From the NCBI RefSeq assembly GCF_003002875.1, contig NZ_PVTH01000003.1:248001-312000 (forward strand): a stretch of 64,000 nucleotides of DNA, given 5' to 3'. The first letter of the stretch is position 1. Each line of letters begins with the position of its first letter. This DNA is from Arcticibacter pallidicorallinus (GTDB taxonomy: Bacteria > Bacteroidota > Bacteroidia > Sphingobacteriales > Sphingobacteriaceae). The position numbers and the translations under genes were made by a program. The notes under the pieces are model-generated. The model saw only the letters and a program-made list of their open reading frames with translations. It searched no databases and was not told the origin of the DNA. Below are positions 61,447 through 64,000 of this stretch, piece after piece.

Positions 61447-61893
61447 ATGTACGATTTCTTATTCCACGCGCATTCTTTGCTGCGATTTGTAGTATTCTTT
61501 GCCCTGGTTGTGGCAACCATATTAGCTTTTATGGGCTGGTTCGGCAAAAAACCTTTCAGCAAAGCTAATAAGACGCTGAATCTGGTAACGTTGATATCAA
61601 CGCACGTACAGGTACTTGTTGGATTATTTTTATATTTCGTGAGTCCCCTGGTTACCAGTAGTACAATGGGTGAGGCAATGAAAGACAGCACCCTGCGCTA
61701 CTGGAAGGTAGAACATGTGGCGATGATGCTCGCAGCTGCGGTGTTAATTACTATTGGAAATGCAAAGTCAAAGAAGATTGCCGAACTAACCGCTAAACAT
61801 CGCCCTGTTGCCATCTTCTTCGGATTAGCTTTGTTATTAATTGTTGTGGCAATTTTACAGAGTGGAAGACCGCTATTAGGCATCAGTCATTAA
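61447..61893 (+). CDS. Four-TM membrane protein (cytochrome b-like, function uncertain)
   Basis: 148 aa with four hydrophobic helices. His residues near or in helices (HAHSLLR, STHVQVLVG, WKVEHVAMM) are the reason relatives are often called cytochrome b, but heme binding is not shown by sequence alone. GWFGKKPFSKANKTL is a typical loop. Stands alone before the trp leader. Confidence 0.7.
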   Translation: MYDFLFHAHSLLRFVVFFALVVATILAFMGWFGKKPFSKANKTLNLVTLISTHVQVLVGLFLYFVSPLVTSSTMGEAMKDSTLRYWKVEHVAMMLAAAVLITIGNAKSKKIAELTAKHRPVAIFFGLALLLIVVAILQSGRPLLGISH

Positions 61894-61904
61894 TTGAAAA
61901 AACA

Positions 61905-61936
61905 TTTGGTAATTTAACTTGCTTTACTTTCATTTG
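61905..61936 (+). promoter_or_regulatory. Promoter of the trp operon
   Basis: TTTG (61905-61908), 20-bp spacer, TTCATTTG (61929-61936; one mismatch to TAnnTTTG). Start predicted close to the leader ATG at 61941, so the leader may be nearly leaderless itself. Confidence 0.6.
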
Positions 61937-61940
61937 TAAT

Positions 61941-62012
61941 ATGTTGAATAATAAATATACTCAAAACTGGTGGTGGCACGAATCTGTGCACCGTAGCGTT
62001 GTATGTTTATAA
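61941..62012 (+). CDS. trpL: trp leader peptide (23 aa, three tandem Trp codons)
   Basis: ATG 61941 to TAA 62012. Codons 10-12 are TGG TGG TGG (peptide part NKYTQNWWWHESV). The Trp codons overlap the 5' arm of hairpin 1:2. Ribosome stalling there when Trp-tRNA is scarce would free segment 2 (61987-61993) to pair with segment 3 (62049-62055) and prevent termination. Confidence 0.9.
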   Translation: MLNNKYTQNWWWHESVHRSVVCL

Positions 62013-62044
62013 TCCATTGATCTAATTTTTCAAGATAAATATAG

Positions 62045-62071
62045 AACCCGGTGCATAACACCGGGTTTTTT
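62045..62071 (+). terminator. trp attenuator terminator (3:4 hairpin)
   Basis: AACCCGGTG/CACCGGGTT (62045-62053, 62059-62067) with CATAA loop and a T-run, 37 bp before trpE. The competing antiterminator is TGCACCG (61987-61993) with CGGTGCA (62049-62055). Hairpin 1:2 is 61972-61979 with 61986-61992. Confidence 0.92.
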
Positions 62072-62107
62072 GTTTTTTATTTTTCGCATCAAGATAATAC
62101 GATATAC

Positions 62108-63529
62108 ATGCATAAGCTATTTACATCATACAAAAAGTTGCTTGCTGACACCACAACACCTGTTAGTATCTACCTGAGAATCAGAGATGTGTTCCCCAAC
62201 AGCATTTTATTGGAAAGTTCCGATTATCATAGTCGCGAGAACAGCATGAGCTTTATCTGCTGTGATCCGATTGCGGGTATCGTATTGGATAAAAATACGC
62301 TGATGACTTACTATCCGGACGGAAGCAGGATGGAGGTTCCTTCGGAAGGCATTAATCTGCAGGAAGAAGTGACTGAATTCAGAAAAAAGTTCGCGTTTGA
62401 AGACGGTGATTTTAAGTTTATATCTAACGGGCTGTTCGGGTACTTCACATTTGAAACTATTGAAAAATTTGAAGACATCAAGCTTACTTCTTCTCTAAGT
62501 GAAGCCAGGGAGATTCCCCTATTACAGTACCATGTGTACAAATATGTTATCGCAGTTGACCACTTCAAGAACGAACTCTATCTGTTCGAGCACAGGTGTT
62601 CGGAGGAAGAAGAATCCGGTTTAGAGAAACTTCAGTATCTGACACAGAACAAGGATTTTCCAGAGTACCCTTTTGCTTCAGAAGAGTCTGAAACCTCTAA
62701 TTTCTCCGACGAGGGTTTTATCGAGGTAGTTGAAAATATGAAAAAGCATATTTTCAGAGGAGATGTATTTCAGATTGTGCCATCCAGGGCATTTTCCAAG
62801 CCTTTCAGCGGCGATGAATTTAACGTTTACCGCGCGTTGAGATCAATCAATCCTTCTCCTTATCTTTTCTACTATGACTACGGCGATTTCAAATTGTTTG
62901 GATCTTCCCCGGAGGCACAGCTTACTGTAAAAAAAGGGGAGGCGACGATCTTTCCAATTGCGGGAACTTTCTTAAGAACGGGTAATGATGCGATGGATGC
63001 GCAGTTAGCGGAGAAACTGGAGAACGACCCTAAAGAGAGCGCCGAACATGTGATGCTGGTTGACCTCGCTCGAAATGATCTGAGCAGGCACTGTAGCAAC
63101 GTACAGGTTAAGGCTTTTAAGGAGGTTCAGTATTATTCCCATATCATTCACCTCGTTTCGAAGGTGACCGGTATGTTACAGGCAGAGGTAGATCCCTTTA
63201 AGGTTGTGGGAGCCACCTACCCCGCGGGAACTCTTAGTGGCGCTCCAAAGTACAAGGCTTTACAGCTGATAGATAAATACGAAAACACCGGCAGGGGTTT
63301 TTACAGTGGTGCAATAGGGTTCATGCGATTCAACGGAGACTTTAACCACGCCATTATGATCCGCTCGTTTATGAGCAGAAATAACGTTCTTCATTATCAG
63401 GCGGGAGCTGGCATAGTAGCCGACTCGGATCCTCAAAGTGAGCTTAATGAAGTGAATAATAAAATAATGGCTTTGCGCAAGGCGATCGATCTGGCAAAAA
63501 CGATAGTACCGACATTTGAAAAAGTTTAA
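62108..63529 (+). CDS. trpE: Anthranilate synthase component I
   Basis: 473 aa from ATG 62108 (MHKLFTSYKKLLAD). Chorismate-binding domain with FGSSPEAQLTVKKGEATIFPIAGT, LVDLARNDLSRH, ATYPAGTLSGAPK and YQAGAGIVADSDPQSE. A regulatory LLESSDYHSRENSMS segment near the start resembles the Trp-binding LLES motif, suggesting feedback inhibition. The frame extends 19 codons upstream into the attenuator; that start is rejected. Makes anthranilate with TrpG. Confidence 0.95.
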   Translation: MHKLFTSYKKLLADTTTPVSIYLRIRDVFPNSILLESSDYHSRENSMSFICCDPIAGIVLDKNTLMTYYPDGSRMEVPSEGINLQEEVTEFRKKFAFEDGDFKFISNGLFGYFTFETIEKFEDIKLTSSLSEAREIPLLQYHVYKYVIAVDHFKNELYLFEHRCSEEEESGLEKLQYLTQNKDFPEYPFASEESETSNFSDEGFIEVVENMKKHIFRGDVFQIVPSRAFSKPFSGDEFNVYRALRSINPSPYLFYYDYGDFKLFGSSPEAQLTVKKGEATIFPIAGTFLRTGNDAMDAQLAEKLENDPKESAEHVMLVDLARNDLSRHCSNVQVKAFKEVQYYSHIIHLVSKVTGMLQAEVDPFKVVGATYPAGTLSGAPKYKALQLIDKYENTGRGFYSGAIGFMRFNGDFNHAIMIRSFMSRNNVLHYQAGAGIVADSDPQSELNEVNNKIMALRKAIDLAKTIVPTFEKV

Positions 63530-63627: not shown

Positions 63628-64000
63628 ATGAAAATATTAGTTATTGATAATTATGATTCATTCACGTTTAATCTTGTCCATCTGCTAAATGAGTGCGGAC
63701 AAGATCCTGTTGTCTGGAGAAACGACAAGTTTCAGCTTGAGGATGTGAATGAGTTCGATAAAATACTACTTTCACCTGGTCCGGGAATTCCTTCCGAAGC
63801 AGGCCTGTTGCTTGATGTAATCAAAGCTTATGCACCTACGAAAAGCATTTTGGGTGTTTGTCTCGGCGTTCAGGCAATTGCTGAAGTGTTTGGTGGTAAT
63901 CTGTATAATCTTTCGTACCCCGTACACGGTAGGGCTACCGAGATGTCGGTTCTGGATAAAGAGGAAACGTTGTTTTCCGGGCTGCCTGAAACATTCAACA
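63628..64000 (+). CDS. trpG: Anthranilate synthase component II, glutamine amidotransferase (partial)
   Basis: ATG 63628; 124 codons are visible and the gene continues past the window. Class I amidotransferase: ILVIDNYDSFTFNLVHLL, LSPGPGIPSEAG, and catalytic Cys in GVCLGVQAIAEVFGG. Supplies ammonia to TrpE. Placed 98 bp after trpE, in the same operon. A PabA role is possible but the operon favours TrpG. Confidence 0.93.
   Translation, partial: MKILVIDNYDSFTFNLVHLLNECGQDPVVWRNDKFQLEDVNEFDKILLSPGPGIPSEAGLLLDVIKAYAPTKSILGVCLGVQAIAEVFGGNLYNLSYPVHGRATEMSVLDKEETLFSGLPETFN

Follow-up and report, generated by a model that had tools for sequence, protein, structure and literature searches.

A predicted ribosome-mediated trp attenuator with a near-leaderless start before trpE of Arcticibacter pallidicorallinus, and a separate putative attenuator before trpDFBA

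Attenuation requires that a ribosome load on the leader RNA in the few seconds that precede synthesis of the terminator, and Bacteroidota lack the Shine-Dalgarno sequences that would assist such loading. The region upstream of trpE in Arcticibacter pallidicorallinus raises the question of whether tryptophan may be sensed there by a translating ribosome and, if so, how that ribosome would begin. The window analyzed here is a stretch of 64,000 nucleotides of the forward strand, and the original prediction, made from its letters, described a complete trp transcription attenuator between positions 61905 and 62071. In our analysis all the parts were found where they had been placed. We consider, with a probability of roughly 0.88, that the locus is a ribosome-mediated trp transcription attenuator with a near-leaderless start, and that a separate attenuator serves trpDFBA, as judged from sequence comparison.

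Leader, promoter and their conservation

The promoter, of the Bacteroidota type, and the 23-codon leader with three consecutive TGG codons can be read directly from the sequence (61905-62012), as had been proposed. Together with the neighboring genes, these features are as follows.

61905..61908, + strand: -33 promoter element TTTG, read from sequence (consensus in PMC6847099 and PMC7366714)
61929..61936, + strand: -7 promoter element TTCATTTG, one mismatch to the consensus TAHHTTTG
61941 (ATG)..62012 (TAA), + strand: leader peptide ORF trpL, 23 codons, MLNNKYTQNWWWHESVHRSVVCL, from reading of the sequence and the frame test
61968..61976, + strand: three Trp codons TGGTGGTGG, codons 10-12, read from sequence
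62108..63529, + strand: trpE, anthranilate synthase component I, Anth_synt_I_N over cut-off
63628..64000, + strand: trpG, glutamine amidotransferase, extending beyond the window end

The best model for trpE, TIGR00564, scores 427 bits, under its cut-off of 518. The gene order is trpE, trpG, trpC and then hflX, the last assigned by sequence. Upstream, on the same strand, lies a membrane protein ORF (61447-61893), whose stop codon is 12 nt 5' of the -33 element. The deviation of the -7 box from TAHHTTTG falls at the A, and the box of the genus itself is imperfect; most relatives also carry TTTG at a similar distance from their -7 box.

TrpE homologues were gathered from the family Sphingobacteriaceae and from the rest of its class, and their upstream regions were fetched; duplicates, loci without a leader or terminator in the automatic scan, and wrongly picked ORFs or hairpins were excluded. 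At each of the 148 loci that remained (97 from Sphingobacteriaceae, 51 from the other families of the class), a leader containing Trp codons and then a terminator lie upstream of trpE. The run comprises three Trp codons in 61 loci, two in 76 and one in 11, so that a run of two or three is present in 137/148, and the first Trp is most commonly residue 10. The trp genes are thus preceded by a short ORF whose tandem Trp codons keep their frame, and the conservation of this layout indicates, at the level of sequence, that the attenuator of the window is not a chance arrangement.

Beyond the Trp run, no amino acid conservation was detected (codon-position counts 87/164/190), which is why a frame test was used as the coding evidence instead. 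In this test, the -7-like box nearest upstream of the first TGG run was located, and the next ATG downstream of that box was taken, irrespective of frame. An open frame, uninterrupted by a stop, led from that ATG into the TGG run in 85/85 family loci and 38/38 others (123/123), where chance would give one third, although the loci are related and do not amount to 123 independent events. Two leaders of the family begin with GTG. Two family members (L030 and L031) form a distinct sub-type, in which the leader ends in FAWWRCNN and the terminator is different (AAGCTTGTCGC/GCGGCAAGCTT).

Competing helices and the proposed switch

The hairpins of the window copy are listed below.

61951-61960 with 62001-62010, + strand: outer helix of the 1:2 (anti-antiterminator) hairpin, 10 bp, from folding and covariation
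61972..61992, + strand: inner 1:2 hairpin, linking region 2 with Trp codons 11-12, from folding
61985..61993, + strand: region 2, 5' half of the antiterminator, from folding
62001-62009 with 62036-62044, + strand: A/T-rich antiterminator extension, from folding
62049..62057, + strand: region 3, partner of region 2 or region 4, from folding
62043..62075, + strand: intrinsic terminator, stem 62043-62069 and T tail, with covarying arms

Two of these elements are larger than first described. The 1:2 hairpin over the Trp codons exists, but it is enclosed by a 10-bp outer helix that had been missed, and the 7-nt antiterminator is really 9 bp long (61985-61993 with 62049-62057) and is continued by the A/T-rich extension. 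The outer helix and this extension compete for one 3' arm, from 62001 onward, and are therefore mutually exclusive. The leader thus holds a mutually exclusive antiterminator and anti-antiterminator, with the Trp codons within the latter, while the T-tailed terminator, as had been stated, sits between the leader ORF and the first structural gene, whose ATG is at 62108. The folding of the leader RNA gives z = -3.61, none of 200 shuffles being equally stable, and the antiterminator reaches -15.3 kcal/mol against -7.6 kcal/mol in shuffles (p = 0.005). The leader stop codon comes 17 nt downstream of region 2, and a ribosome paused on it would therefore leave region 2 uncovered; in 25 family loci (Mucilaginibacter excluded) the position of the stop relative to the end of this region varies between 12 nt on the 5' side and 21 nt on the 3' side.

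Alignment with MAFFT followed by RNAalifold recovered the terminator alone in the family, because indels misplace the arms of the other helices; hence, an alignment-free swap test was applied, in which each 5' arm was paired with the 3' arm of its own locus or of other loci (2000 permutations). Three sets were used: other families, Mucilaginibacter, and the rest of the family (25 loci). The outer helix paired better with its own arms in all three sets (0/2000 in each), and the same was true of the 3:4 terminator arms (0/2000 in each). For 2:3 the values were 0/2000 in other families, p = 0.005 in Mucilaginibacter and p = 0.055 in the rest of the family; for the A/T-rich extension they were 0/2000, 0.81 and 0.10, respectively. 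A control pairing showed no preference for its own arms in two sets (0.97 and 0.70) and gave p = 0.019 in the small family set, which therefore holds some signal of relatedness. The 1:2 pairing over the Trp codons can hardly covary because TGG is fixed. We conclude from these comparisons that three helices covary: 3:4, 2:3 and the outer helix. The Trp codons and pairing, whose loss from relatives the original prediction had named as telling against it, are retained there, along with the frame and the terminator.

The behavior of the window RNA was modeled by folding snapshots at growing lengths, with the ribosome represented by a 28-nt mask. With the mask at Trp codons 10-12 and RNA made to 62058, the probability of 2:3 pairing was 0.75-0.98. 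Without a ribosome, the outer and inner 1:2 helices persisted to 62046, and the full RNA formed 3:4 with a probability of 1.00. A ribosome at the stop codon let the inner 1:2 hairpin return behind it (about 0.86), and the full RNA terminated; at 62058, with region 2 unmasked, 2:3 and 1:2 were nearly level (0.51 vs. 0.41). Equilibrium favors the terminator over the antiterminator even with a stalled ribosome (probability of 3:4 pairing 0.67-0.98), from which it follows that antitermination must be kinetic.

From the parts, their conservation, the reading frame and the covariation, we infer a start site, a stall, a switch and a direction of response. RNA polymerase would start at or within 1 nt of the leader ATG, and a ribosome would load on the almost naked 5'-AUG unaided by a Shine-Dalgarno sequence. 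At low levels of charged tRNA-Trp, this ribosome may stall at codons 10-12 and hold the outer and inner 1:2 helices open; region 2 and the A/T-rich extension could then capture region 3 before region 4 is made, so that the terminator would fail and trpEGC would be transcribed. With plentiful tryptophan, or with an untranslated leader, the 1:2 hairpin would form, 3:4 would pair, and transcription would end about 40 nt before trpE.

Leaderless start and the split pathway

In Flavobacterium johnsoniae, the distance from the -7 box TAHHTTTG to the transcription start is 4 or 5 nt (PMC6847099). The window has 4 nt between its -7 box and the leader ATG, and by this rule the predicted start site falls at the ATG, 61941 or 61942. 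Thus, the suggestion of a nearly leaderless leader holds as a prediction from box spacing, and trpL is predicted to be leaderless. The distance from box to ATG is 4-10 nt in 95/97 family loci, which corresponds to predicted 5'UTRs of 0-6 nt there and of about 0 nt in the window. In other families, it is 4-10 nt in 27 of the 48 loci with a box and 12 to 43 nt in the rest. Among the long ORFs of the window, 4/49 have a box 3-10 nt before the ATG. Separately, two of the 49 have an exact TAHHTTTG 5 nt before the ATG, suggesting further leaderless genes in the genome.

It is conceivable, if unlikely, that the attenuator is real and its working transcript is not leaderless, with a normal 5'UTR supplied by transcripts that read in from the upstream gene or begin at a different site. 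The short gap to the upstream gene, the absence of the A of TAHHTTTG from the box of the genus and the distances of up to 43 nt in other members of the class fit such a transcript, as does the proportion of leaderless mRNAs in Flavobacterium psychrophilum, put at 5.5% and no more in PMC9723704. Against this stand the narrow 4-10 nt spacing in the family and the persistence of the box in loci where the upstream sequence differs; both argue for a near-leaderless start.

The idea that leaderlessness is shared by every amino acid leader in the genome was rejected, as the predicted 5'UTR is about 11 nt for pheA and about 31 nt for his; a predicted near-zero 5'UTR is, therefore, a trait of the Trp leaders and not of leaders in general. 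These two leaders were recorded in the genome itself. The Phe leader MQNNNTYLFGYFYYYQ (L161, minus strand, ~2260-2210, contig C7) precedes the prephenate dehydratase gene and has a T-tailed terminator, and relatives carry similar leaders. The His leader MSISFTYHHHFHHRLAAI (L121:1222-1278, contig C5) precedes hisG and has a hairpin at its end, with no T tract seen. A CAGGAG-like stretch 5' of the His leader start recurs in several genomes of the genus and family, and is unusual given that Shine-Dalgarno sequences are absent. An ilvD leader was sought in the same genome, and none was convincing.

The trp genes of the family are divided into trpEGC and trpDFBA. Downstream of trpE-trpG, trpC is found in 106/110 family loci and trpD in 0/110. 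In the genome studied, trpD, trpF, trpB and trpA lie on another contig, with trpF assigned by position and sequence, and a second leader stands before them.

G000:C8:108138-108191 (L274:1347-1400), outside the window: second Trp leader MKTNTIHKLWWWQIGQS, before trpD-F-B-A

Its -7 box is 10 nt before the ATG, its terminator is GGTTGCC/GGCAACC, and its fold gives z = -2.65. The pattern TTTG-ATG-TGGTGGTGG has four matches in the genome (the trpE leader, the trpD leader and two further ones), while a looser Trp-leader pattern was uninformative. Twenty-five trpD loci of the family were examined, and in 22 of them a Trp leader with a -7 box stands upstream of the gene; of the other three, one has a terminator without a detected leader, and two were unreadable or negative. 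Most of the genomes examined from outside the family have trpD close to trpE, and a -7 box followed by a leader was not detected upstream of trpD there. An attenuator of the same design would thus control trpDFBA, and both halves of the pathway should follow one signal.

For the family as a whole, we lean slightly toward a split trp pathway under two parallel attenuators, both with (nearly) leaderless leader peptides, in which tryptophan would be sensed by Shine-Dalgarno-independent loading at the RNA 5' end and by a ribosome tightly coupled to the polymerase. Two such attenuators would explain the co-regulation of the split pathway without a Trp repressor, none of which scored over the cut-off in 31 genomes (this one and 30 related ones). 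A start codon kept at the very 5' end of the RNA would offer a natural model of how Bacteroidota initiate rapidly on leaderless transcripts, and a leaderless Trp leader would also be a ready reporter for transcription-translation coupling.

In Sinorhizobium meliloti, trpL is leaderless and its attenuated RNA, rnTrpL, acts in trans on trpDC (PMC7298713). As the trp genes are split here as well, the leader RNA released by termination, or else its peptide, might also act in trans, like rnTrpL and peTrpL; we consider this improbable, since the cis attenuator of trpD itself removes the need for it and the peptide is not conserved outside Trp. Even less credible is the reading that the terminator merely ends the upstream membrane protein gene and that the Trp-rich frame arose by chance. 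That gene is on the same strand, it stops just before the -33 element, and no other terminator lies between, but many families, whatever their upstream neighbor, retain the Trp run with its frame, the promoter spacing and the covarying pairing. Finally, T-box elements, TRAP and the Trp repressor serve trp genes in other bacteria, but one of them as the sensor in place of the translating ribosome is highly implausible: searches for Rfam families in the window and for the Trp repressor in the 31 genomes gave nothing over the gathering score or cut-off, and none of these systems makes use of a Trp codon run whose frame is conserved.

Comparison with known systems

Attenuation by leader peptides is not new to the phylum. 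The Rfam family RF01692, Bacteroid-trp (Weinberg et al. 2010, PMC2864571), occurs before trp genes of Bacteroidota, and leader-peptide attenuation was described in 2021 upstream of amino acid biosynthesis operons of F. psychrophilum (PMC9723704), in the same phylum and with the same stated mechanism, the main text containing no trp case.

RF01692 and the window share an ATG, a leader with Trp codons, a terminator 5' arm at the 3' end of the model, and the outer helix, whose arms are codons 5' of the Trp run and a stretch 3' of region 2. RF01692 reaches its threshold of 49 bits at four loci of one other family, where the -7 box is 4-18 nt from the ATG (16-18 nt in 3/4) instead of 4 nt, and where the terminator arm is GGCTTGTC instead of CCCGGTG. 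The window does not reach this threshold and is not listed even at E <= 10, while the trpD leaders of the family score 34-38 bits. By its sequence, the window copy belongs to a known kind, as a divergent member that is missed by Rfam, and the Bacteroid-trp model could be broadened to include these leaders.

The E. coli-type trpL (RF00513, Trp_leader) scores 21.1 bits in the window against a threshold of 41. Attenuation as in E. coli is still the best reading of the locus, with stalling at tandem Trp codons and the same 1:2, 2:3 and 3:4 logic; the likeness does not extend to the Shine-Dalgarno sequence, which is absent here, the predicted leaderless start, the extra outer helix and the stop codon beyond region 2. 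S. meliloti trpL resembles the window in its leaderless leader ORF (predicted in the window) within a trp attenuator and in its split trp genes. There, however, a single attenuator also acts in trans on trpDC, whereas here each half of the pathway has its own cis attenuator. Searches of the open literature found no earlier report of a conserved near-zero 5'UTR or of paired attenuators, and these two features are extensions of the known kind.
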